A stretch of 64,000 nt of DNA. It comes from Nocardia sp. NBC_01730 (GTDB lineage: Bacteria; Actinomycetota; Actinomycetes; Mycobacteriales; Mycobacteriaceae). Position 1 is the first letter of the stretch; every line of letters starts with the position of its first letter. A program made the position numbers and the translations under genes. This document shows, in pieces, positions 2,857 through 29,363 of this stretch. The stretch covers positions 2,108,001-2,172,000 of the forward strand of contig NZ_CP109162.1 in the NCBI RefSeq assembly GCF_035920445.1, written 5' to 3'. The notes under the pieces are model-generated. The model was not told where the DNA came from. It worked only from the letters and a program-made list of their open reading frames with translations, and made no database searches.

Positions 2857-3299
2857 CAATTCTGCTCCTAACTGGCGGAATAGGGTTCGTTCCCTGCTGT
2901 CGACGACTGGCGAATAATCGTTACCAGCACACTGAGCTTCCGCGCCACGACTGTCGACCACCTGGCTCGTAGATACGAAACCTGTTGTGACTCAATAGTT
3001 CTACCAGAGATTGAGCGCAAACTGCCGCCAGCGCTTTCCCCTGGTCGGCGGCCGTGCCCACGTTTCAGGGACGATGAACGGGTGCTTGTGCGCACGGTGC
3101 TTGCTCATCGGTTCCGAACCGGTCGACTCGTAATCAAGCTCAGCTTTGACCTCGCCAACGGGCTAGGCGACAAACGCACCCGAGCCCGGGGATATGGCAA
3201 CGTCGCCGCCCCGCCCGCCGAAGAAGTCGAGCATTTGCTGGATGTCGATCCAGGCGAGTAAGCCGCCGGACTCACCGGGTGATTCAGCTTGTCGTCAAT
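2857..3299. other. Intergenic stretch, no convincing gene
   Basis: Between the secreted protein and the end of the RiPP operon. The only notable open frame is on the plus strand from a GTG at 3082 to a TAA at 3261 (59 codons, containing RTGRLVIKLSFDLANG and ending LLDVDPGE). It lacks a clear ribosome binding site and a recognisable family, so it is noted rather than called. Confidence 0.4.
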
Positions 3300-3887
3300 T
3301 CAGAAGGTGGTACACGGAATGGGGAAGGTTCGGACTCGGTATGGTGACAACAGGAAATGCGCACCGTCGATGAAGACAAGGTCGTTGTCCCGCAAGGCGG
3401 CCAGCAGTATCAATTCATCGCCGGTCAGCGCATCGACATGGGTTGCCGCGGCCAGCGCACGGAACCGGGTGGTGTGCGGCTCATCGAGTGTGGCGCGAAA
3501 GCTCGCTTCGGCTCGGCGAATGTCCCTGATAGCGACGAAATCCGGACCGTACCGGTAAGAACACAGGCCGACCTGGTGGCGTTCCCGCCACCGAGCCAGC
3601 GTCTCTTTCGCGGTGTAGCCCTCCGCGTGCGCAGGTGGCGGCAAATGCACAACGCCGTCCAGTCCGTGCGGCGCCGCAGAGCCGAGTGTCCAGTCGATCC
3701 GAACACCGGCCTCCATCGCCGCACCCAGCAACCGCAGCACTGCGAAGTCGTCCGCCCCACCACCGAATCGCACCGGATCGGCGATGGTGACGACCTGCCC
3801 GAGCCGCCGGGCGGCGGCGACCGTCTCGTCCGGCTTTGTGAGGTCGGCGATGACGGTTTCCGGCCACCGTGCCAGTGGATCGGTCAT
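3300..3887 (-). CDS. DUF5825-like protein, RiPP-cluster partner
   Basis: A 195-aa soluble protein beginning MTDPLARWPETVIADLTKPDE. Its ATG overlaps the stop of the radical SAM gene by 4 nt (ATGA), so translation is coupled and the long upstream extension in frame is rejected. It contains an alpha/beta-like segment (VVTIADPVRFGGGADDFAVL), a DWTLG...LDGVVHLPPP block and a C-terminal LTGDELILLAALRDNDLVFI helix. It resembles the DUF5825 proteins found beside B12-radical SAM maturases of the TIGR03975 type in actinobacteria; the match is by recollection of layout and sequence style. It might help in precursor binding or complex assembly. No catalytic motif was seen. Confidence 0.72.
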   Translation of the reverse strand: MTDPLARWPETVIADLTKPDETVAAARRLGQVVTIADPVRFGGGADDFAVLRLLGAAMEAGVRIDWTLGSAAPHGLDGVVHLPPPAHAEGYTAKETLARWRERHQVGLCSYRYGPDFVAIRDIRRAEASFRATLDEPHTTRFRALAAATHVDALTGDELILLAALRDNDLVFIDGAHFLLSPYRVRTFPIPCTTF

Positions 3888-5785
3888 GTCGGCTCCTCGA
3901 TGCGCAACAGCACCGGCTCCGGTTGTTCCGGCCGCACGATCGAGCGTTCGATCCCACCCGGCGTAGTCGCCACTCCGAGCCAGCGACCACCTTCGGTGAA
4001 AACCAGCCCGTTGGCCAGTTGCGCGGCGAGCCATTCCGCCAGTTCCGCCTGATTCCAAGGGAATCCAGCCGAGGCGAGATTGCGATGCAACGCGGGAATG
4101 GTGCGGCCATGCTCCAATTCGGCCCAGGTTTCCCGCTCCCTCGGATCGGTGAACACGTAGTCGTGTGCTGCCCAACCGAACCGGCGATCCCTGATAATCA
4201 GCACGCCGTCGATATCGCTACGCAGCAAGGAACTCTCCGGATAACGCGCTTGCCATACAGCAATTGCGGCGTCCAGTGGGGCAACCTGCTCGTCGGTGAT
4301 GCCCTGATCGGGAGTGTCGAACTCGTAGACGAGGTCGGCGAGCACCCTCGGGTCGAGGTCGTACACTGCATGGTATCGCTCGGCGGGAGCGCGTTCGGTG
4401 AAGCCGATGGCCGGATCGTCGAAATTCGGCGAGAACCTTTCGAGGAAGATCCGGGCGGTTCCGCCTGGCGGCTGAAGGTGCACCAGCGCCGGAACCTGCT
4501 CGATTATCCTGCGGTAGTCATCCGCGCTTTCGCCGGGAAATCCGTACAGCCAGTTCCACTCCACGGTGATCCCCTCGGTTTCCAAGTCCCGCAACGTGCG
4601 CACGTTGCGGACTCCACCGATACCCTTGTCCATTCTCCGCAACACATCATCCACAAGAGACTCGATGCCGGGCTGCACACGCCACACCTTCGCCGCCCGC
4701 AGAGTCGCTGCCTGTTCCGCGGTGATGTTCGCCTTGATCTCGTAATGCAGTCGCAAGTCGATGTCCATCGTGGCGATCTCCGGGAGCGCGGTACGCAGGT
4801 AGGAGACATCAAGGATGTTGTCAACCACGGTAACGTCCAGTGTGCGATGTTTGCGCACCAAGTGGTCGAGTTCGGTGACAAACCGGGACGGTTCCTTCGC
4901 CCGGTACGTCATCGTTGACCCGTTCAGGCCGCAGAAGGTGCAATGATGTTTCTCGCCCCACCAGCAGCCACGCGAACTTTCCAGCACCAACTCCGGTTCA
5001 GTGAACTCACTGACCACACTATTGTCGTAAGTCTGAAACCAATCGTCGAACAATGGGACACGCATGTCGGCGGGACCGACCGGGGTGCCCCTGTGATCGT
5101 TCACCCGCTGCGCGCCATCGGCGTCCCGCCAGCACAGTCCGGCAATCGACCCGAGTTCGCCGTGGTCCGAGCGGAGCGCGCCGAGCAATTCCGGAAATGT
5201 CTCGTCGGATTCGCCGCGCAGCACCAGGTCGACGAATTCGAATTCCCGGTGCAGGGTGACGCCCATGATCCCGTCGCAATTATAGCCGCCGAGCAGGGTG
5301 CGAACTTCCGGTGCGCGTTGCTTGATCCGTTTCGCCACGGCCAGGCTCGGCACGCTCTGACTGAACGTGGAGGTGAACCCGACTATTTCCGGATCCATGG
5401 CCAGTACCTCGTCGGCGACCGAGGAGACGAATTCGTCCGCGAGTTCCCGCATTCGTGAGATCGGATCGAGGGCGATCCGGTGCCGCCGCGCGTAGTCCGC
5501 CATCTGCTCGATCCCGAATGCCTGGCCGTTCAACGCGCCGGCGAACACCCATTCGCCGAGCGCGTGCACGAACCCGCCATCAGAGACCTCGAGATAGTCG
5601 GGCACCGTCAGCCCAGCGTCCAGCAGTACTTCGGCCCAGCGGATATTGGCGTAGTAGGCGATGGGTTCGGCCATGCCGTGCTCCACACAACTCGCCTTCA
5701 GCACGCCGAGCGCGAGCGACGGGCGGCTCAACTCGTGCCACGGCATGCACACCAGTACGGTGCGCGACGAACTCTCGACACTCAC
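3884..5785 (-). CDS. B12-binding radical SAM RiPP maturase (TIGR03975-like, probable C-methyltransferase)
   Basis: A 633-aa cytoplasmic enzyme. The N-terminal third looks like a cobalamin-binding Rossmann domain (VLVCMPW..., PEIVGFTSTFSQSVPSLAVA, RTLLGGYNCDG). The radical SAM core follows near residue 275 with ESSRGCWWGEKHHCTFCG, a CX7CX2C cluster motif instead of the canonical CX3CX2C, then a TIM-barrel-like region with EGITVEWNWLYGFPGE. The SRGCWWG...HCTFCGLNG block is typical of RiPP maturation radical SAM protein 1. Such enzymes probably methylate unactivated carbons of a precursor peptide; that reaction is inferred from the family. It starts at a GTG that overlaps the stop of the 172-aa gene (GTGA), and its stop overlaps the next start (ATGA). 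The precursor candidate lies at 6300-6464. Confidence 0.88.
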   Translation of the reverse strand: MSVESSSRTVLVCMPWHELSRPSLALGVLKASCVEHGMAEPIAYYANIRWAEVLLDAGLTVPDYLEVSDGGFVHALGEWVFAGALNGQAFGIEQMADYARRHRIALDPISRMRELADEFVSSVADEVLAMDPEIVGFTSTFSQSVPSLAVAKRIKQRAPEVRTLLGGYNCDGIMGVTLHREFEFVDLVLRGESDETFPELLGALRSDHGELGSIAGLCWRDADGAQRVNDHRGTPVGPADMRVPLFDDWFQTYDNSVVSEFTEPELVLESSRGCWWGEKHHCTFCGLNGSTMTYRAKEPSRFVTELDHLVRKHRTLDVTVVDNILDVSYLRTALPEIATMDIDLRLHYEIKANITAEQAATLRAAKVWRVQPGIESLVDDVLRRMDKGIGGVRNVRTLRDLETEGITVEWNWLYGFPGESADDYRRIIEQVPALVHLQPPGGTARIFLERFSPNFDDPAIGFTERAPAERYHAVYDLDPRVLADLVYEFDTPDQGITDEQVAPLDAAIAVWQARYPESSLLRSDIDGVLIIRDRRFGWAAHDYVFTDPRERETWAELEHGRTIPALHRNLASAGFPWNQAELAEWLAAQLANGLVFTEGGRWLGVATTPGGIERSIVRPEQPEPVLLRIEEPT

Positions 5786-6303
5786 ACGTCACCGCCTTGC
5801 ACTGCGGCGCGGTGGATTGTGGCGATCGTGTGATAGCAGTAGTCCTCAACTGCGTGTGACGGGACTCGAGGCACGTTACTCAGCGCGTCCACCCGATTCT
5901 CGGTTAACGTGCTGTTGAAGTGCCGGGCTGCGGCCAGCACGACCAGTGCCACCAACTCGTAGTGCACCTTGAGTCGTCCAGTGCATTCGCCGCCCACGCC
6001 GCTGTGCCTAGGGCAACGCATTCCATGGCTGCACACCACGATGCCGGGAATGGCCTCGCTCAGCCGGTCGTCTACATCTTGAGCAGCGACCCCATAGTGA
6101 CGCCGCCCAAGGCCCCCGAGTAGATGCGGCCTGCGCACTACCGACCAGAACCGCCACTTCCAGCTGATCGCGCGGATTCCTTGCACCGCGACGAAAGCTT
6201 GCTCGTCAGTGAGCGCCCCGAGAAGCGGAAGGGATGGCTCCAGCCACGGCGGAAGCCCTGATGGTGCGCATCCCTCCCGCGTGCCGGAGAGCTTCCGTAT
6301 CAA
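5782..6303 (-). CDS. Uncharacterised RiPP-operon protein, 172-173 aa
   Basis: The frame opens with a TTG at 6303 whose last bases form the TGA of the precursor ORF (TTGA overlap). It ends GTGTGA, overlapping the GTG start of the radical SAM gene by 4 nt. Coupling on both sides argues strongly that it is translated. The protein has an aromatic basic helix (ISWKWRFWSVVRRP), a Cys pair (VVCSHGMRC) plus another Cys at GECTG, a hydrophobic helix (VALVVLAAARHF) and a C-terminal EDYCYHTIATIHRA segment. No family was recognised. A recognition, protease or chaperone role in the operon is possible but unproved. Confidence 0.65.
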   Translation of the reverse strand: MIRKLSGTREGCAPSGLPPWLEPSLPLLGALTDEQAFVAVQGIRAISWKWRFWSVVRRPHLLGGLGRRHYGVAAQDVDDRLSEAIPGIVVCSHGMRCPRHSGVGGECTGRLKVHYELVALVVLAAARHFNSTLTENRVDALSNVPRVPSHAVEDYCYHTIATIHRAAVQGGDV

Positions 6304-6464
6304 GCTGTCTCGATGTCCTTCTTCAGTCGGACATCCGAATCGAGGATGCGCGTCGTCGGTTTGACGCTGAGCTGCTGGATCTTTTTAACCGACAACACAG
6401 ACTCTGCCTGATCCGGGACGTCGAGCTGGGCATCCGAATCGAAGATTTCTGAATGATGTGTCAT
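6300..6464 (-). CDS. Candidate RiPP precursor peptide, 54 aa
   Basis: A short ORF with a strong ribosome binding site (GAGAGGAG, 7-8 nt before the ATG at 6464). It is the first gene of the four-gene overlapping operon and ends with a TGA inside the TTG start of the next gene. The peptide begins MTHHSEIFDSDAQLDVPDQA, is acidic in its first half and Lys/Arg/Thr-rich later (SVLSVKKIQQLSVKPTTR), and ends LDSDVRLKKDIETA. It has no Cys, so lanthionine or sactionine chemistry is unlikely; C-methylation fits the neighbouring maturase. The motif I-F/L-D-S-D-A/V-Q/R-L occurs twice, near each end. Its role as the maturase substrate is inferred from position and size. Confidence 0.72.
   Translation of the reverse strand: MTHHSEIFDSDAQLDVPDQAESVLSVKKIQQLSVKPTTRILDSDVRLKKDIETA
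6332..6446 (-). repeat. In-frame 16-bp direct repeat inside the precursor gene
   Basis: The plus-strand sequence catccgaatcgaRgat occurs at 6332-6347 and 6431-6446 with one mismatch. The 99-nt spacing is exactly 33 codons, so both copies encode the same motif (IFDSDAQL and ILDSDVRL). This suggests an ancient internal duplication, and possibly two recognition or modification sites. Confidence 0.8.
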
Positions 6465-6483
6465 GGGACACTCCTCTCGTGGG

Positions 6484-6561
6484 TCAGATGATCATAAGAA
6501 CTCCCCGCCTTACCCACAAGATCGCGCGTTGAATCACCGATAGAAGTTTGTCGAGTCTCAT
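6484..6561 (-). CDS. Possible 25-aa hydrophobic cationic peptide upstream of RiPP precursor
   Basis: A mini-ORF starting MRLDKLLSVIQRAILW and ending VRRGVLMII. Its ATG overlaps the stop of the preceding 19-aa ORF by 4 nt (ATGA). Its own stop is 19 nt upstream of the precursor ATG, just before the GAGAGGAG site. The sequence would make an amphipathic, positively charged helix. It could be a leader ORF controlling precursor translation, a second precursor, or a chance frame. No homologue is known to me. Confidence 0.32.
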   Translation of the reverse strand: MRLDKLLSVIQRAILWVRRGVLMII

Positions 6562-6617
6562 GTGACGGTTGACGCTTTGGCTTCTGAGCTGCTGTCGAGA
6601 GGTGAGAGCTGAGGCAT
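6558..6617 (-). CDS. Possible 19-aa leader ORF at head of RiPP operon
   Basis: A mini-ORF encoding MPQLSPLDSSSEAKASTVT. The ATG at 6617 is preceded by GGAAAGGA six nucleotides away, a good Shine-Dalgarno. The stop overlaps the start of the next 25-codon ORF (ATGA). Together they extend the pattern of overlapping genes seen in the RiPP operon. Evidence is limited to the RBS and spacing. Confidence 0.35.
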   Translation of the reverse strand: MPQLSPLDSSSEAKASTVT

Positions 6618-6810
6618 GGTCCGTCCTTTCCAGCGTCGTGAACCGCCGCCGAGGCATCTTCGAGCCCACCTGGTTCGTCCCAGCCCATGCCATCTCGGCC
6701 GCCAGCGGCCTGAGTCATTGGGTGGCCAGCCCGGCGGTCGCCAACGTCGGTGCCAGCAAAGCTGCGCATGCGGCATTCCCCGCCAATACCTCGCGATTGT
6801 CGGAGCCGAT

Positions 6811-7647
6811 TCAGGAACGATTGCGAGCGTGCGTGATTCGGCCACACGCCGCCGTGAGAACCGCCACCACCATAACGGTGATCAGTTGCAGCACATTCCA
6901 AGCCACCGGGTTGTGGACCGGTAGTGCCAACGGTTGCTGGTATGTGGAGGCCCCTGCGATGACGGCCGGAGTCCGCGGCTCGGTCGGCGGTAGAGGTGGT
7001 GGAGCGGGGGGCGATGGCGCGGGGGGTGCCGCAAGCATTGGTGAACCCGGCTGCGGCGGGCCGAGTTGTAGCGGGATATCAGGGTAGGGATCAGGGAGCG
7101 GTGCGCCCGGCAGCAGCAACAAGCAGGTCAGCAGCGCGCTTCCGGTGACCGCGCTGCCGACGACCGCACTCCCGAGTGCGGATTCGGACCACCAGCTGCC
7201 GGTAGCCGATCCGAGTGTCATCAATGCACTCCCGGAGGCGGCGCTGCCCGTACATGCCGCCTGTACGCTGCCGGACTCGAGACCGAGCGCGTCGCTCGAA
7301 CCAACCGCCGCGGTACCCGCTTCGGGCCGCACCGGGCCGAGGGCCAATGGACTGCCCGCACTTTCCGAGCTGCCACTCGAAACCGTTTGTGGCACCGCAC
7401 TTCCGGTGGCAGCCGACACGGCATAGGCAGGCGGTGCGAGCGCCAACTCTGTGCCGACCGCGTCAGCACCTGCGGTGACCGAGGTCCCGCCCGTCGCACT
7501 TCCGGAGGTGAGATCGCCGAGAGACGGCCAGGCCGTCGGATCAGCGGCAGCAGGTGGCGCCACCAGAACAGCTGCGGCAGTCAGTGGAAGGAAGGCGAAT
7601 CCTGCGGTGACCCTACGGATTCGCGTGATGTCGATCGGCGATGCCAT
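6811..7647 (-). CDS. Secreted Ala/Ser/Gly- and Pro-rich protein with C-terminal membrane anchor
   Basis: The protein starts MASPIDITRIRRVTAGF, with a Sec signal peptide whose core reaches APPAAADP near residue 36. A long low-complexity region follows with repeated GSA/TGSA/GSAV units and three or four Cys. Next is a proline-rich stretch (APPAPSPPAPPPLPPTEP) and a single hydrophobic segment near the C-terminus (AWNVLQLITVMVVAVLTAACG) ending in basic residues. This is the layout of a surface protein spanning the envelope and anchored by a C-terminal helix. The family was not recognised. The ATG at 7647 has GAGG nine nt upstream; an in-frame ATG at 7662 is the alternative. Confidence 0.6.
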   Translation of the reverse strand: MASPIDITRIRRVTAGFAFLPLTAAAVLVAPPAAADPTAWPSLGDLTSGSATGGTSVTAGADAVGTELALAPPAYAVSAATGSAVPQTVSSGSSESAGSPLALGPVRPEAGTAAVGSSDALGLESGSVQAACTGSAASGSALMTLGSATGSWWSESALGSAVVGSAVTGSALLTCLLLLPGAPLPDPYPDIPLQLGPPQPGSPMLAAPPAPSPPAPPPLPPTEPRTPAVIAGASTYQQPLALPVHNPVAWNVLQLITVMVVAVLTAACGRITHARNRS

Positions 7648-7684: not shown

Positions 7685-8434
7685 TCAACTCCCGTTTCGG
7701 AAACGGGTCAACGCCAGTTCGAAGGCGTCCCGCGGTACAACGCTGCCGCCGGAGAACGGCCGATCGAGGTTGTAGATCGCGAGGATCACCCAACCGACGA
7801 CGACACCGAGCACGGCGGTCATGAGCATGCTCCGCCTGGTGATTTCCTGGTCTGCCAGCACCATGCGCAACAGCAACAGAGCGGTTCCGAACCACAGGGC
7901 GGCGTAGAGGAACCCGGGTATCGACAAGCTCGCATCCATCGCCCGGTCGTACCGGGCTTGCGCGACTCTGCCGAGCCCGGCCAAAACGCTGGAGCGCTCA
8001 TCGTCCGCGTCGCGCAGCGCCGCCGCCTCGGCGCGCAGCTTGTCGAACGTCTGCTGGGTCGATTCGCTCAGCTGGCGTTTCTCGGCCATGACCGGCCATT
8101 CGCTGCCCAACACCTGCGTGGTGTAGTCGCGCACGAGCCCCTGGATCCGATCGCGTTCCGCCTGCGGCAATTTGTCCGCGGCAGAGTGGACTTCGACCAG
8201 CGCCTTGGCCTCGGCAACAGTGTGGCTGTGTGCGTTGTCGTAGTTCTGCCAGCCGATCACCACCACCAACGCGACCACCGCAGTGAAGAACGTACTGATG
8301 ATCTCGAGGACCAATCCGTCGGCACCCTCTTCCTCATTCTTACGCCACGACTCCGGGCGTAGCCGGTTCGCTAGAACGAGGACGGACACCGCGACGAGCG
8401 CGGACAGAACGGGCAGAGCCCATTGCAGAACCAT
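7685..8434 (-). CDS. DUF4239-like (bestrophin-like) integral membrane protein
   Basis: A 249-aa protein with four predicted membrane helices: two N-terminal (LQWALPVLSALVAVSVLVLA and STFFTAVVALVVVIGW) and two C-terminal (FLYAALWFGTALLLL and MLMTAVLGVVVGWVILAIY). Between them is a cytosolic helical region with QLSESTQQTFDKLRAEAAALRDADDER. This two-plus-two layout with a hydrophilic middle is typical of the DUF4239 family, of unknown function. The ATG at 8434 has AAGGAG six nt upstream; the longer frame to 8476 has no such site. Confidence 0.7.
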   Translation of the reverse strand: MVLQWALPVLSALVAVSVLVLANRLRPESWRKNEEEGADGLVLEIISTFFTAVVALVVVIGWQNYDNAHSHTVAEAKALVEVHSAADKLPQAERDRIQGLVRDYTTQVLGSEWPVMAEKRQLSESTQQTFDKLRAEAAALRDADDERSSVLAGLGRVAQARYDRAMDASLSIPGFLYAALWFGTALLLLRMVLADQEITRRSMLMTAVLGVVVGWVILAIYNLDRPFSGGSVVPRDAFELALTRFRNGS

Positions 8435-8934
8435 GTGATGCTCCTTATCCCGGGGCAGCCGTTCGCCCATATGCAATCACGACTTATGTTGAGGGACAAT
8501 AGATGACGACGATCATGTGGCGGGTGGGGGTGTCCAGCGGCGGGCGCGTAGCCGGGCGGAGGAGACGCCGAAGTCTTCTTCAAATGTTCGGGAATGGCGT
8601 AGCGCATGACTCGACCGCGGGTCAGGGAGCTGAGTTCGAAGAGGGCGCCCGGGACGACGTCCTCGTAGAGATCGGTGAGTTGGCGGGTAAGGTGGGCGCC
8701 TTCTTCGCTGGGGCCGATGTAGCGCGTCGGGTATGTATCGAGGAATTGCCCGGCGGATTCCAGGTTCTGGGGCGCGTGCGTCTGATCGACCCCGAGCATG
8801 GCGCCGACGACGCGCCAGGCGTAGAAGAGTCGGGGATCGATCATCAAGAGCTGGTCGTTCTCCTGCGCGACGAAGTCACCGAGTGTGGCGTCGATGCGGA
8901 CCTTGAACGCACCCGGATCGTATCGATCAGACAT
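8371..8934 (-). pseudogene. C-terminal part of an MpaB-like oxygenase (DUF2236), probably broken
   Basis: From an ATG at 8934 the product reads MSDRYDPGAFKVRIDATL and includes LFYAWRVVGAMLGV, RYIGPSEEGAHLTRQLTDLY and a VMRYAIPEHLKK segment. The GPSxEGxxLT...PGxLF...MRY pattern matches the C-terminal part of MpaB-type haem oxygenases. The expected N-terminal haem-binding half (about 200 aa) is absent. The frame runs 64 nt into the DUF4239 gene with an implausible Cys-rich tail, so the true end was probably lost. The start overlaps the preceding small ORF by 8 nt. Confidence 0.42.
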
Positions 8935-19158: not shown

Positions 19159-21168
19159 TTACGGCGCGGTAGTAGCCGGTTCGTCGGCCGGGTAGTAGAT
19201 CTCACGGCGCAGGCGTTCCAAGTCCGGCGCTGCGGAAGCAGAGATCTGCGTGTACCGATCACTCTGATGCCCTCGGAGCGCCACGCTTGTCATCTCGTAC
19301 ATCGACAGGTATTCCTTCCCCCGGCCCGACAAGCCGGGAATCATGCGGAAGAGCACGGGGAGGTAGCGGATCATTTCGTCGATCTGGGCGCGATGCTCGG
19401 CCACCTGGCGCTTCACCTGCTCGACGGCTTCGCGGCGGGTGCACCCGGTCTCGTGACGGACCGCCCGCACCAGGTTGTAGGGGACTTGGTCTGCCTCGTC
19501 CTGATCCAACCCCACCAGGTCGTTCTCCACGAAGGTCACCCAGAAGGCGAGCTCCTCGAGACGGCGGATCACGGGGTGGTTGCGCAGCTTCGACGGCAAT
19601 TCCCGGTCCTGATGCACCTCCATGCAGGCGATGGCGATTTCCATCCCACTGGTCGACATCCGCAGCGGCAGGTAGTCGGCCGTGGCGGGGATGTAGCCGT
19701 TGATGCGATGGTGCGCTTCGCGTTCGCAGGCTTCGAACCACTCCTCGAAGCTGCCGAGAAACCGCTCCTGCCAGCGGGTGGTCCGGCCCTCGCGCAGGCG
19801 CGGCCACAAACTCGCCCACGCCGTCGGGATCGCGCCGGGTCTCCACGGTGTCTCCGGGTCCTGGCGCAGCGTCGCCACCAGGCCACGCCTCAGCGCGGTG
19901 ACAGCTTCCGGGTCCTTCAGCCGCGGATCCTCGAAGAGGTCGTCCCACACCAAGGACAGCATGGCAAGGCCTGCGGTGGTCTGTTCACGGGCCGCGTCCG
20001 CCGGGGCCAAGATCTGTGCCGACTGTAACCGGAGCACTCCTGCCCATCGATGGTGGTGGTCGAACTCGGCTGGGGAGAGGACAAGGCCGGTGTCCACCAT
20101 CCAGCTACTCACCCATCGCGTGACCTCCGGCGGGAGCGCGTAGCGGTGGGCCTCGGGTGGCGGTGTCGCCGGTGGGAGGACCGCGGGACCAGGAGTTCGC
20201 CGATCGAGAATGGACCGGGCGTAAGCGATCATCGCGTGGCGGGCGCGCGAGTCAGCAGGCACAGCGGCGAGCTGACCGGCAGCCTGGTCCATGAATTCAT
20301 CGGCCATCGCCTGTGCTTCGTCCACGGCGCCCGAGGCGATGACAAGCTCGCGGGCGCGGGTGGCTTGCTCACCCGTCATCGCCCTGCGCAGCAGGCGTGC
20401 AAGGCTTTGGTCGCGGGCAGCCGCGCGGATCACCGGAAGTGTGTAGATGCCCTCGCGCAGATCCGTGTTGACGGGCTTGCCCATTTCGTCGGCGGTCGAG
20501 GTCAGATCGAGGATGTCGTCATACAGCTGGTAGACAAGCCCGAAGTGGCGGCCGAACAGGGCCAACGCCTCTTCCTGATCCTCGGGGCGGCCGGCTTGCA
20601 TCGCGCCAACTCGGCATGCCAGCGACAGCAGCGCCGCCGTTTTGCCGTCGATCGCGTCCAGGTAGGACTGCTCGCTGCGGGAGGCCACGTAGAGGTCGGC
20701 GGCTTCGATCACCATGCCTTCGCACATCTGCTCACTCGCGATCGCCCCCACGAGAACTTCGCGCTGGCCGAGTTCGGCCAGCATGCGCGTGCCCGAGGAC
20801 GTCACGGAGTCTCCACCCAATACGGCCATGTGCGATCCCCACACCGCGTTGGCGTTGGGGATGCCTCGACGCTGGTAGGCGTGATCGATGACGTCGTCGT
20901 GGTAGAGCGAGCCCAGGTGCACCAACTCCACCCCAGCAGCGGCGCGTACCGTACGGTCGTCGGCCGGGGCCGCGGGATCGGTAAGCAGGTAGTACGACAG
21001 CAAGGTCAAGGTGGGACGGACCAGGCGGCGAGCGGTGTCCACCCCTTCGTCGGTGAGTGCGGTCAGCTCTGGCCTGCCCCGGAACTGCACGGGTCCGAGA
21101 ACGTCACGGACGCGGTCCAGGTCCGCATCCAGGTGCGGGAAGACAGCGAAATCGATTTCACGTGGCAC
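19159..21168 (-). CDS. Fused polyprenyl diphosphate synthase - class I terpene cyclase
   Basis: A 669-aa two-domain protein. The N-terminal half (about 1-330) is a trans-prenyltransferase with both Asp-rich motifs: DDVID in ELVHLGSLYHDDVIDHAYQR with RRG after it, and DDILD in LVYQLYDDILDLTS. After a Pro-rich linker (GPAVLPPATPPPEAH) comes a terpene cyclase (about 350-669) with WDDLFED as the metal motif, ENDLVGLDQDEAD at the NSE position and a C-terminal RY pair (SDRYTQIS). It would build a C15-C25 diphosphate and cyclise it in one polypeptide. The third NSE position is Asp where Glu is usual. Fungal PT-TC fusions have the opposite order. The GTG at 21168 has AGGAG seven nt upstream; an in-frame ATG at 21192 is less likely. 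No encapsulin gene is nearby. Confidence 0.88.
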   Translation of the reverse strand: MPREIDFAVFPHLDADLDRVRDVLGPVQFRGRPELTALTDEGVDTARRLVRPTLTLLSYYLLTDPAAPADDRTVRAAAGVELVHLGSLYHDDVIDHAYQRRGIPNANAVWGSHMAVLGGDSVTSSGTRMLAELGQREVLVGAIASEQMCEGMVIEAADLYVASRSEQSYLDAIDGKTAALLSLACRVGAMQAGRPEDQEEALALFGRHFGLVYQLYDDILDLTSTADEMGKPVNTDLREGIYTLPVIRAAARDQSLARLLRRAMTGEQATRARELVIASGAVDEAQAMADEFMDQAAGQLAAVPADSRARHAMIAYARSILDRRTPGPAVLPPATPPPEAHRYALPPEVTRWVSSWMVDTGLVLSPAEFDHHHRWAGVLRLQSAQILAPADAAREQTTAGLAMLSLVWDDLFEDPRLKDPEAVTALRRGLVATLRQDPETPWRPGAIPTAWASLWPRLREGRTTRWQERFLGSFEEWFEACEREAHHRINGYIPATADYLPLRMSTSGMEIAIACMEVHQDRELPSKLRNHPVIRRLEELAFWVTFVENDLVGLDQDEADQVPYNLVRAVRHETGCTRREAVEQVKRQVAEHRAQIDEMIRYLPVLFRMIPGLSGRGKEYLSMYEMTSVALRGHQSDRYTQISASAAPDLERLRREIYYPADEPATTAP

Positions 21169-21625
21169 GCGGGCACTCCTGACTGGGTACATCGGTCATC
21201 TACATACACCGTCGATCAGTGAAATTTGACACCACCGATACGCGGAAGATATTGATATCGGCCAATTCTGACGTCACCGTCACTGAACCAGGCCGCGGGA
21301 GTTCATCGCGGACATCGCGCGGGTTGTTCGGCTCGATGATGATGTCGGCGTGTGAAGCGACGCAGACCGGGTCAGTGGCGGCAATTGAGCGTGAGCAACG
21401 TCGGAACCGTCTATCTGTCGGCTCGCCAGGGCGGAATCGTCACGCAGACGTGTCACCGATCCGCGCACCCGTTCACCTGGTGGTGGTCTCGTCGCGGCAT
21501 TCTGTAGTCGAGACAGGCGAGCCCGCCATTCGCCGGCTTTTTATGGGACTCCCTGTAGTCAGCTAAGGTTTGGAGGACAACAGTGAGAGTCCGAACAACA
21601 GTGACAGCAGGACGGTAGGCGCCCC
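21169..21625. other. Divergent promoter region with a possible 11-codon leader ORF
   Basis: 457 bp between the terpene synthase and desaturase starts. A GGAGG sits six nt before a GTG at 21583 that opens an 11-codon ORF (VRVRTTVTAGR) ending in TAG at 21618, only 7 nt before the desaturase start; it could be a leader peptide. Otherwise no supported gene; a 115-codon plus frame here has no recognisable content. Confidence 0.35.
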
Positions 21626-22920: not shown

Positions 22921-23148
22921 CGGCTCTGCAGGTTTGAGGTGCTACCGCCATGCGCCAGTGAGGGCACCGGCAAAAGCCACCTTCTGATCGCGTTGGGTAC
23001 CGAGACCGCGATGGCCGGATATCGAGTGAAGTGCACGTTGGCGACCAAGCTGGTCAACGAACTTGTCGAGGCCGCCGACGAGAAGCAGCTGACCAAAACC
23101 ATCGCCCGCTACGACCGGGTGGATCTTTTATGCGAGCTCGGCATGAGT
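22921..23148 (+). pseudogene. IstB-like ATPase fragment (IS21-family remnant)
   Basis: The plus strand reads SEGTGKSHLLIALGTETAMA then GYRVKCTLATKLVNELVEAA and TIARYDRVDLLCELGM. This is the ATPase core of IstB (GPxGTGKTHLAxALGxxAxxxGYxVxFxTxxxLVxxLxxA), the helper of IS21-family transposases. The Walker B (usually LLxxDELGY) has lost its Asp codon and the remainder is gone. No IstA or terminal inverted repeats were found, so only a scar of the element remains. It overlaps the tail of the MFS gene on the other strand. Confidence 0.7.
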
Positions 23149-24395
23149 CGTGCGGCCCGGACGTCTTCGGCCGACGCTGCGGGCTCATGGTCGGACAAGT
23201 GTGTCCGTTTGGGCAGCAAGAGCGGGGTGGCGAGCAGGAGAACGCCAGACATGGTGATCGCGGCGAGCGGGCTGGTGAGTGTGGCGAGGATGCCCCAGAC
23301 CACCATCAGGGCAGCTTGTAGCAGTTTGCTGCTGCCGCTCCAGGTACTGAGGACTTGGGCAGCACGATCCGCGGGAGTGCGTTGCAGGCGTTCTGTTGCG
23401 TAGATCGGATTGAAGATGCCCATGCAGGTGATCAGCAGGCCCTCGACGATGATCACGGTGAGAAATCCGGGGATGCCGGGACGGATGAACGCGAGACCGA
23501 GTGGGAACAGCGATCGCAGCCAGCCGGAGACGATCATGACCCGGTGCCGGCCGTAGCGGGTCACGAGGCGGGCGGAGAGGCGGGCACCCACGAAGCCGCC
23601 GAGCGCCGGGATGCCGAAGGCAAGACCGTATTGCCAGGCCGGGAAGTGGTACTGGCCCAGCAGGAGGACGGACAGGAGCGGGACGGTCGCCATGATCAGG
23701 CCGCCGACCAGGATCGAGTTGAGGAACAGGCGCCGTAGTGCGCGGTCGCGGAGGATGAACCGCCAGCCGCCGAGAAAGTCGGCTCCGCGCAACCTGGTGG
23801 CCCGGTCGCGGGGTGCTGCGACGTCGCCTCCGCGGATGCGGAGGACCCCGAGCGCGGACAGCAGGTAGCTGAGGGCGTCGGCCATGACAGTGATGACCGG
23901 GCCGAGCAACCCGATGAGTGCGCCACCGAGGGGCGGGCCCACCGCGGTCGCCACCCAGCTCGTGCCCTCGAATCTCCCGTTCGCCACAAGGAGGTGATCG
24001 CTACGGACGAGATATTTCAGATACGCGCCAGATGCGGCAGTGAAGGCGATGCTCGCGGTCCCGGAGATCACCGAGACGACCAGCAGTTGGCCGTAGGACA
24101 GCAAGCCGAGGACGTACGCGATCGGAACACTCACCATCGCGACGAACCGGGTCAGGTCCATCGCGATCATCACCGGACGCTTGGCCCGGTGCTCGACCCA
24201 CGGCCCGAGCGAGACCGCGACAATCGCCGCGACGGCAAGCCCGACCGCCTCCAGAAGCGAAACGGCGAATGCCGGCGAATGCAGCACTCGAACCGCGATC
24301 AGCGGGAGCGCTCCGAAGGCAATCCACGTGCCGTAGGTACTGACGGCGTAGGCCGACCACAGCCAACCGAAACTGCGCCCCAACTGCACGTGCAT
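23109..24395 (-). CDS. Major facilitator superfamily exporter (MFS_3/EntS-like)
   Basis: A 428-aa protein with about 12 hydrophobic segments. The N-terminus FGWLWSAYAVSTYGTWIAFGALPL, the EHRAKRPVMIAMDLTRFVAM loop (motif A-like region) and WVATAVGPPLGGALIGLLGP fit MFS_3 exporters, which pump out siderophores, macrolides or other small molecules. It is divergent from a LysR-type gene 121 bp away, the usual arrangement of a locally regulated efflux pump. The last 30-40 residues are polar and the 3' end overlaps an IstB remnant, so the tail may have been altered. Confidence 0.88.
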   Translation of the reverse strand: MHVQLGRSFGWLWSAYAVSTYGTWIAFGALPLIAVRVLHSPAFAVSLLEAVGLAVAAIVAVSLGPWVEHRAKRPVMIAMDLTRFVAMVSVPIAYVLGLLSYGQLLVVSVISGTASIAFTAASGAYLKYLVRSDHLLVANGRFEGTSWVATAVGPPLGGALIGLLGPVITVMADALSYLLSALGVLRIRGGDVAAPRDRATRLRGADFLGGWRFILRDRALRRLFLNSILVGGLIMATVPLLSVLLLGQYHFPAWQYGLAFGIPALGGFVGARLSARLVTRYGRHRVMIVSGWLRSLFPLGLAFIRPGIPGFLTVIIVEGLLITCMGIFNPIYATERLQRTPADRAAQVLSTWSGSSKLLQAALMVVWGILATLTSPLAAITMSGVLLLATPLLLPKRTHLSDHEPAASAEDVRAARLMPSSHKRSTRS

Positions 24396-28184: not shown

Positions 28185-29363
28185 ATGGGTTTTGCAGAGA
28201 TGCGCCGGTTCCGCCGTGATCCGCTGGGTTTCGTCGAGAATCTGCGCCGCGCCAGCCCGGTAGAGGTGTTCAGGCTGCCATGGGGCGGGTGGTGTGTCGG
28301 CGATACGGGCCTAGCGCTGACGGTATTGAGTGACCACGCTTTCAATGAGGGGATGTCTGGGTTCTTCGGTTCTATGCTGCCTTCGCGGCCTGCTCAGGTC
28401 GATTTCGGCCGCGCTGTGCGCGCGATTCTGCGGATGCATATTCCTGAGTACTGCGAGTCCCTGGCGGCGGCGGTGGTCGAAATGCCTTCCGTCACCCGCT
28501 GGCCTGCGGCCGGGGTCGAGCTGGCGTATCGGTGCACCGCGGACGTGCTGCTGTACCCCGATGGTTCCCCCAGGTTGCGGCAGTTACTGGAGCGAAACGC
28601 ACGCGTGGGCGCGCTTCGCCCGGCGCGAATGGACCAGCGGGCGCGGGCGCAGCTGCTGCGCGCCAAGCTATCGACCGCGCTGACCGAGCAGGTCCGAGAC
28701 CGGCGCAGCGATACCTGCTACACCCCGGAAGCCGAACCACGGGATCTGCTCGATGCGGTGATCGGTGTCTGTCCCGACGAGGTCACCGACCCAACGGTGG
28801 CGCAGCTGTATGTGCTGATGTTCCGGTCCATCGTGGGACCCCTGGGCTACTCGCTCGCGTGGTCGGTACTGTTGGGCAGTCTCCACTCTCCCGGCTCACC
28901 ATGGTCTTGGCCCGTCGACTGGGTCGTACGTGAGGCATTGCGACACCGGCCGGTCTCCTGGATGGTCAGCCGTCCTGTCCCCCATCCCACCGAATTCGGC
29001 GGGATCGCCTTCCAGACCGGCGACCTTTTATCCGTCAGCCCCTACCTGCTCCATCACGACGAACAACACTGGACCAGCCCCGAGGCGTTCCAACCCGACC
29101 GCTGGGCTCAACCGACCGGACACCGCCCCTACGTGCCCTTCAGCTTCGGCCCCTTCACCTGCGCCGGCGCCGCGGTCGCCCACGAGCTGGTCACCGAAGC
29201 AGCCACCACCCTCACCGCCAATACTTACCTGCGCGTCATCGGCGGCGGCGACATACGCCCGATCGTGACCAACGCCGCCATCCCCAGGCCATTCACCCTG
29301 CGCCACACCCCCACAGTCCCTGACCGCGCTCGACAGAGCCGCAGGAAGGAGGTGACACCATGA
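28185..29363 (+). CDS. Cytochrome P450, coupled to a 23-codon ORF
   Basis: A 392-aa haem monooxygenase. The K-helix ExxR is in VVREALRHRPVSWMV and the haem-binding loop is FSFGPFTCAGAAVA, with the Cys ligand in FxxGxxxCxG. PxRW occurs in FQPDRWAQP. The I-helix reads FRSIVGPLGYSLAWSVLLG and lacks the usual A/GGxxT acid-alcohol pair, which suggests an unusual oxygen-activation site or substrate-assisted chemistry. Its stop overlaps the ATG of the 23-codon ORF (ATGA). The substrate is unknown; a peptide substrate is one possibility given the neighbour. Confidence 0.85.
   Translation: MGFAEMRRFRRDPLGFVENLRRASPVEVFRLPWGGWCVGDTGLALTVLSDHAFNEGMSGFFGSMLPSRPAQVDFGRAVRAILRMHIPEYCESLAAAVVEMPSVTRWPAAGVELAYRCTADVLLYPDGSPRLRQLLERNARVGALRPARMDQRARAQLLRAKLSTALTEQVRDRRSDTCYTPEAEPRDLLDAVIGVCPDEVTDPTVAQLYVLMFRSIVGPLGYSLAWSVLLGSLHSPGSPWSWPVDWVVREALRHRPVSWMVSRPVPHPTEFGGIAFQTGDLLSVSPYLLHHDEQHWTSPEAFQPDRWAQPTGHRPYVPFSFGPFTCAGAAVAHELVTEAATTLTANTYLRVIGGGDIRPIVTNAAIPRPFTLRHTPTVPDRARQSRRKEVTP

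Follow-up and report, generated by a model that had tools for sequence, protein, structure and literature searches.

The window analyzed in this study is a 64,000-nucleotide (nt) stretch of the 8.68 Mb genome of Nocardia sp. NBC_01730 (contig NZ_CP109162.1, positions 2,108,001 to 2,172,000 of the forward strand). Between positions 3300 and 6464 its minus strand carries four genes, encoding a 54-residue peptide, a 172-residue protein, a B12-type radical S-adenosylmethionine (SAM) enzyme and a DUF5825 protein, and translation places all four open reading frames (ORFs) where a first-pass annotation, made from the sequence alone, had drawn them. On balance, we favor reading the locus as an operon of the type that makes ribosomally synthesized and post-translationally modified peptides (RiPPs), whose release step would be performed by a split Peptidase_S74 (intramolecular chaperone autoprotease, ICA) domain. 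The genes and the features on which this reading turns are as follows, with lengths in amino acids (aa).

6300..6464, minus strand: 54-aa precursor ORF (P0003), ATG start, residues 1-42 being the proposed modified part
6303..6338, minus strand: S43-A54 SDVRLKKDIETA, a Peptidase_S74-like catalytic strand with a predicted cut at D42/S43 (conservation, fused profile scores)
5782..6303, minus strand: S74-body protein (P0002), TTG start over the stop of the 54-aa ORF (Pfam, relatives)
6055..6204, minus strand: S74-body residues 34-83, matching PF13884 positions 14-55 (Pfam)
5983..6033, minus strand: C91-x5-C97-x2-H100-x6-C107 in the S74 body, invariant in 12/12 rows of alignment A1
3884..5785, minus strand: B12-type radical SAM RiPP C-methyltransferase, 633 aa, GTG start (TIGR03975)
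3300..3887, minus strand: DUF5825 partner protein, 195 aa, ATG start (PF19142)

The 54-aa ORF contains no cysteine and has six relatives beyond itself in the protein collection, 70-81% identical to it, with a further counterpart in Nocardia jinanensis (locus L038) at 61% identity. In an alignment of eight rows, comprising the seven family members (A2) and the N. jinanensis counterpart, mean column identity is 0.66 over residues 1-20, 0.85 over residues 21-42 and 0.98 over residues 43-54, and 22 residues are invariant. S43, D44, R46, L47, K48, K49, D50, I51, E52, T53 and A54 are unchanged in 8/8 rows, the S43 codon lying at 6336-6338 and the K48 codon at 6321-6323. Between the window and N. jinanensis there are six synonymous and six replacement changes across codons 21-42, and four synonymous changes and one replacement across codons 43-54. 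Across the window and loci L038-L072, 965,508 six-frame codons in all, the pattern SD.R[LIV]K.D[ILV] occurs twice, in the 54-aa ORF and in the corresponding N. jinanensis ORF; relaxing it to S[DE].[RK][LIVAMF]K gives three occurrences, the third of which, in L044, is a chance match. The Ser-x4-Lys spacing of S43/K48 equals that of the Ser/Lys dyads S587/K592 in MyRF and S911/K916 in endoNF (PMC8326128).

The product of the second gene, counted here as 173 aa and identical with the 172-aa protein that the first-pass annotation regarded as undescribed, belongs to a family homologous to Peptidase_S74 (PF13884), so that the earlier description is not supported. Scanned singly against PF13884, 6/11 body relatives score above the cut-off at 22.1-27.6 bits (P0011 27.6, P0030 27.3, P0025 27.2, P0032 24.9, P0031 23.6, P0018 22.1) and 5/11 below it at 12.4-21.8 bits, and several relatives carry a prior PF13884 assignment; P0011-P0018 and P0025-P0032 are metagenome proteins. 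Comparison of the body family (12 rows) with the continuous S74 protein L073 by hhalign gave 79% (E 1.6e-5), with the core W, G, AQ and Y aligned. The C-x5-C-x2-H-x6-C motif is missing from the more distant body relatives P0030-P0032, and its residues C91, C97, H100 and C107 could form a zinc knuckle replacing the S74 beta hairpin. The match of the body to PF13884 does not include the start of the domain.

Fusing the 54-aa product to the body raised the PF13884 score to 25.1 bits, against 18.0 bits for the body alone (cut-off 22). Fusion had a like effect on two further natural pairs (19.4 to 26.2 bits; 19.0 to 25.9 bits), bringing 3/3 natural pairs, from three sources, above the cut-off. With only the C-terminal 12 residues of the 54-mer placed in front of it, the body gave 25.8 bits, and 10/10 control fusions, consisting of six shuffled 54-mers, three other RiPP precursors and one S43A/K48A pair, stayed at 17.4-17.7 bits. 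In L073, a continuous actinomycete S74 protein scoring 54.0 bits, the Ser of SDGRLKED occupies profile position 1. Because the body lacks the S74 start, this start is the Ser/Lys strand, and SDVRLKKDIETA ends the 54-aa ORF, the two products appear to be halves of one domain. As judged by these comparisons, the C-terminal 12 residues of the 54-aa product are the predicted S74 catalytic Ser-Lys strand, and the S74 homology of the 54-aa/172-aa pair is well supported at the level of sequence. The first-pass annotation had noted neither a transporter nor an obvious protease in the operon; the former observation stands, while the latter is not supported, given the putative S74 halves in the 54-aa ORF and the 172-aa protein.

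Split S74 domains also occur elsewhere in actinomycetes. In Nocardia, relatives of the stand-alone S74 body of L069 were found at 10 places in 8/148 genomes, GPMAQD being present at nine of the ten, and a pattern search located a small ORF beside the body at 7/9 GPMAQD places, with none found at L083 and L086. The small ORFs end in ...(S/N)(D/N)RxIKR(D/E)...W-(D/E)-(R/H)-stop, with the body placed in the -1 frame; in L074, which comes from another family, the arrangement is similar but the body is in frame 0 behind a stop. The secreted split S74 pairs are L067, L068, L069, L074, L079, L081, L082 and L085, and their division into two ORFs may reflect reinitiation, recoding or decay. As in the window, the small ORF of the secreted Nocardia pairs and of L074 stops a few residues past the S74 motif and the body forms a second ORF; the small ORF of the secreted pairs bears a signal peptide, as assigned by eye. 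Joining the L069 ORFs raised the PF13884 score from 24.5 to 29.7 bits, and two S74 proteins are continuous (L073, L075). That splits also occur away from the RiPP operon makes a working split domain more credible.

Conservation of the locus was assessed with 10 kb of N. jinanensis (L038, contig NZ_BMMH01000025.1), which gave a single long match to the window, from 6438 to 3302 at 86.6% identity, together with matches of 12-14 nt attributable to chance. The long match ends two nt from the DUF5825 stop; its other end falls 26 nt into the 54-aa ORF, owing to a difference in N. jinanensis at this point. As no other long stretch of the window matches N. jinanensis, the four genes appear to constitute a conserved unit, as far as one comparison goes. 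The ratio of nonsynonymous to synonymous substitution rates (dN/dS) between the two was 0.37 for the 54-aa ORF, including its poorly aligned start, and 0.25, 0.17 and 0.30 for the following genes in order. Four relatives of the 54-aa ORF pair with body relatives by equal-length contigs (P0019/P0006, P0020/P0007, P0021/P0015, P0022/P0009), with adjoining locus tags in three of these four pairs. The proteins P0006 and P0007, from contigs with 54-aa ORFs ending in ETA, start with Met at the overlap site. In the same relative lists, no body was found for P0023 and P0024, and no small ORF for the bodies P0005 and P0010.

Among 397 genomes of the order, only the source genome gave a match to the body profile, and in GTDB genome contigs the profile returned one locus, that of N. 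jinanensis; it was found in 0/35 and 0/297 genomes of two other families, a result obtained without a positive control, which therefore shows nothing. Genome searches with PF13884 placed 3/60 and 3/246 genomes over the cut-off, and because they missed the gene of the window itself, their negatives mean little for split domains. At E<=1e-60 the maturase is present in 4/150 Nocardia genomes, of which the source genome and N. jinanensis carry the S74 pair, while L039 and L040, with maturases 42-43% identical to that of the window, carry neither part. The association of both small genes with the pathway, drawn in the first-pass annotation, extends to the closest homologous locus found, that of N. 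jinanensis, where the 172-aa gene and the greater part of the small ORF are retained; L039 and L040 count against it. A phage or plasmid origin of the body was considered and found no support: the body was not found by tblastn in phage or plasmid collections, its profile was not found in IMG/VR, and the best PHROGs match reached only E 0.043. A PADLOC search gave nothing at E<=0.01.

The remaining features of the operon concern the two modification genes, the junctions and the translation start.

4931..4966, minus strand: cluster motif CWWGEKHHCTFC, CX7CX2C, residues 274-285 of the radical SAM protein (sequence)
4076..4273, minus strand: part of the radical SAM C-terminal domain, residues 505-570, a DUF5825 homologue (Pfam, hhalign)
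6300..6303, minus strand: TTGA stop/start overlap between the 54-aa ORF and the S74 body (sequence), with an identical TTGA in L038
5782..5785, minus strand: GTGA overlap between the S74 body and the radical SAM gene (sequence)
3884..3887, minus strand: ATGA overlap between the radical SAM gene and the DUF5825 gene (sequence)
6471..6478, minus strand: GAGAGGAG, likely ribosome-binding site of the 54-aa ORF (by eye, unscored)

The 633-aa protein matches TIGR03975 (NCBIfam) at 541.5 bits (cut-off 281.85) over residues 10-606 and model positions 2-605 of 606. With the CX7CX2C motif also present, its assignment to a RiPP maturase family in the first-pass annotation is borne out. The same protein matches Radical_SAM (PF04055) at 40.0 bits and the B12-binding domain (PF02310) at 27.2 bits, the latter under the gathering threshold of 32.1 (Pfam). 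The 195-aa product of 3300-3887, which had been called DUF5825-like, scores 85.1 bits against DUF5825 (PF19142; gathering 25). Residues 505-570 of the radical SAM protein also match DUF5825, at 22.4 bits and E 1.2e-4, under the gathering threshold of 25 (Pfam), and hhalign of DUF5825 against the C-terminal domain of the maturases gave 96% (E 4.5e-9, 86 columns), compared with 8.9% for a control against the N-terminal part of the same maturases. Judging from these alignments, DUF5825 is related to the C-terminal domain of the adjoining maturase, as if it were a duplicated domain. A homologous pair of B12-radical SAM and DUF5825 proteins serves amino acid C-methylation in clavusporin biosynthesis, as stated in PMC12257519.

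Each junction is a 4-nt overlap (TTGA, GTGA and ATGA), read directly from the sequence and in agreement with the earlier claim. In actinomycetes, 4-nt overlaps per se are commonplace. The TIGR03975 and DUF5825 matches and the cysteine-free 54-aa ORF likewise support the earlier proposal of a tightly coupled pathway to a probable C-methylated RiPP free of cysteine. GAGAGGAG lies six nt 5' of the start ATG of the 54-aa ORF, and no promoter- or terminator-like sites were found across 2900-6900.

Comparison was extended to 26 TIGR03975 loci, three in other Nocardia and 23 from places above the cut-off in 394 genomes of the class; a DUF5825 relative is present in 17/26 (E<=0.01). A relative of either small gene was found in 0/28 other loci (the 25 without N. 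jinanensis and three Streptomyces plasmid loci), which were searched with the two small proteins of the window (phmmer) and with the motif, not with a general S74 profile; apart from the chance match in L044, no S74 motif was found in them. The maturase of L060 begins at the edge of its contig, which places its upstream side outside the data. By eye, a short RiPP-like ORF adjoins the maturase in at least 11 of the 28 loci (L045, L046, L051-L053, L055-L057, L070-L072). The precursors of L056, L057 and L070 are of a distinct type, (E/V)(I/L)KKV...EKRP, unlike the MQKDxIxNDP type of Streptomyces clavuligerus, and the maturases of these three loci score closest to that of the window outside Nocardia.

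Taken together, these observations suggest the following course of events. The 54-aa product would be the precursor, in which the B12 radical SAM enzyme and the DUF5825 protein would C-methylate residues within 1-42. Its last 12 residues would serve as the S74 catalytic strand, with Ser43 as nucleophile and Lys48 as general base. The 172-aa body, made by coupled translation, would take up this tail to complete its fold and would probably do so as a trimer; coupled translation of two chains agrees with the TTGA overlap, at which P0006 and P0007 have Met. Assembly would position Ser43 and Lys48, whereupon the D42-S43 bond would be cut, freeing the modified peptide 1-42, possibly to be trimmed further, and leaving the 12-mer with the body. 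According to PMC8326128 and PMC3742443, MyRF and endoNF are cut just before the dyad Ser, MyRF only as a trimer, and the cut at D42-S43 is predicted because it is carried over from these proteins. The order of the genes, the families of the maturase and of the DUF5825 protein, the S74 homology of the pair and the conservation of the motif are observed, whereas which residues are methylated and that they are, the binding in trans, the cleavage, the trimer, the export and the function are inferred. Tentatively, then, the precursor may carry the catalytic half of its own releasing protease, in which case recognition, folding and cleavage would be one event following C-methylation. Recognition and release of a tail by a split S74 domain would be unlike any RiPP protease known to us, and to our knowledge the self-cleavage domain of phage spikes and MYRF has not previously been described in use in trans. 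No paper linking the S74/ICA domain to RiPPs was found among titles, abstract starts and passages, a search that left most subscription journals uncovered.

Several observations weigh against a split S74 release domain. The body alone scores 18.0 bits against PF13884, covering positions 14-55 of 58, under the gathering threshold of 22. The rows of the 54-aa alignment are all close relatives, which makes the invariance of the motif weaker evidence than the S74 match. AlphaFold2 models of the body from 12 rows (predicted local distance difference test score, pLDDT, 74.8) and from 19 rows (pLDDT 77.7) found no convincing match, to S74 or to anything else, in the PDB and BFVD for the former and in the PDB for the latter. 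Neither Foldseek nor VIA returned an S74 match for the predicted body, which was modeled alone, without the catalytic strand or the trimer; modeled in this way, the fold is hardly put to the test, yet the result counts as adverse. A sequence search of the PDB with the body profile and the fused pair gave 0 matches at E<=10. In N. jinanensis the 54-aa ORF is without its start codon and initial codons, close to the start of the contig; the first ~28 nt of the ORF and the 100 nt preceding it (L038 1-130) do not match the window upstream of the ORF, which may be due to an insertion, to an assembly edge or to decay of the copy. Local alignment found no homology between precursors of the window type and those of L056, L070 and S. 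clavuligerus, five 54-aa family members aligning with the S. clavuligerus precursor at z -1.0 to -0.2, no better than shuffles. Finally, as splits occur outside the RiPP operon, the pair might serve something other than peptide release.

The alternative that fares best, itself unlikely, is that the S74 pair acts as a chaperone or recognition module without cutting, the body presenting residues 1-42 to the radical SAM enzyme and another protease trimming the tail. S74 domains also drive folding and trimer assembly, according to PMC8326128, and no leader-binding domain was detected in the operon at E<=1 (Pfam, NCBIfam), both of which are consistent with such a role. A mere binding strand, however, would have no need of Ser43 and Lys48, which are invariant in 8/8 rows, close relatives though these rows are.

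It is improbable that no peptide is freed at all and that the 54-aa and 172-aa chains stay together as a permanent split S74 protein, at once radical SAM substrate and working product. The existence of other split pairs in Nocardia, and the lack of a radical SAM relative near L067-L069, would suit such a protein, but the short RiPP-like precursors recognized by eye in at least 11/28 other TIGR03975 loci argue for a peptide product. Decidedly improbable, too, is the expression of the two small ORFs as one gene through a programmed -1 frameshift, with cleavage in cis as in phage spikes. The window, L038 and the secreted Nocardia pairs do all have the body in the -1 frame, yet a -1 frame results from any 4-nt overlap. 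The TTG at the junction in the window and L038 and the Met in P0006/P0007 resemble start codons, no slippery heptamer is visible by eye, and the split pair L074 has its body in frame 0 behind a stop.

Two further alternatives have very little probability. The C-terminal 12-mer SDVRLKKDIETA, rather than the N-terminal part, might be the mature product, being the most conserved stretch (0.98), but its conservation is accounted for by S74 homology. The locus might also be a conventional TIGR03975/DUF5825 RiPP operon in which the 172-aa gene is unrelated and resembles S74 by chance, as the sub-threshold score of the second protein alone and the missing fold match would allow; against this stand the two domain halves in the right order in adjacent genes, the flat controls at 17.4-17.7 bits and the prior PF13884 assignments of several relatives.

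In the surroundings of the operon, a Pfam scan of its four products and five neighbor ORFs identified no transporter, and no hydrolase or major facilitator superfamily (MFS) genes beside the precursor; by eye, an MFS-transporter-like ORF is located at 23109-24395, 17 kb from the operon. A polyprenyl/terpene synthase-like long protein at 19159-21192 and a P450-like protein at 28185-29363 were also noted by eye. A bestrophin-like membrane protein (7685-8476) lies upstream of the operon, and the opposite strand nearby (479-1966) encodes a prolyl-tRNA synthetase with a ProRS-C_1 domain, the archaeal/eukaryotic-like type.

If release by a split S74 domain is correct, it would join RiPP biosynthesis with the self-cleaving chaperone found in phage tail spikes and MYRF, fields apart in the literature searched. 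An enzyme that has been described as a single-chain system could then be tested directly with two separate chains. It could also yield a 12-residue tag that is cut off before its Ser upon addition of the 172-aa partner. The locus would further stand for C-methylated peptides of a class in which genome mining for RiPPs would record no protease, and would suggest that S74 domains split behind the catalytic motif have been overlooked in actinomycetes.

Among known systems, the S. clavuligerus locus (L072), presumably the clavusporin cluster from its name, has a TIGR03975-type maturase 41.7% identical to that of the window, followed by DUF5825 as in the window. Its small cysteine-free precursor, MQKDVIHNDPLAGDEENRKPSVGITITVPFRNAEDADED, lies just upstream, the precursor in the window being likewise small and cysteine-free. 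Unlike the window operon, L072 is without a relative of the S74 pair and carries genes for an alpha/beta hydrolase and an MFS transporter upstream; its short RiPP-like ORF, MQKDVIHNDPLAG...VGITITVPF, stands beside these hydrolase and MFS genes. In biphenomycin-like YHxYxY clusters a second B12-radical SAM gene adjoins DUF5825, as in the window, and the characterized cluster of this kind (PMC12257519) uses MNIO hydroxylation and cross-linking and a TldD-type protease, none of which is present in the four genes of the window. The Peptidase_S74/ICA domain of the phage endosialidase endoNF and of MYRF would share with the pair described here the Ser-x4-Lys dyad, the core residues of the body and cleavage before Ser. 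In endoNF and MYRF, the domain lies inside a large protein and acts as a single self-cutting chain in a trimer, whereas in the window the catalytic strand and the body would reside on two genes, with a 42-residue peptide to be freed.

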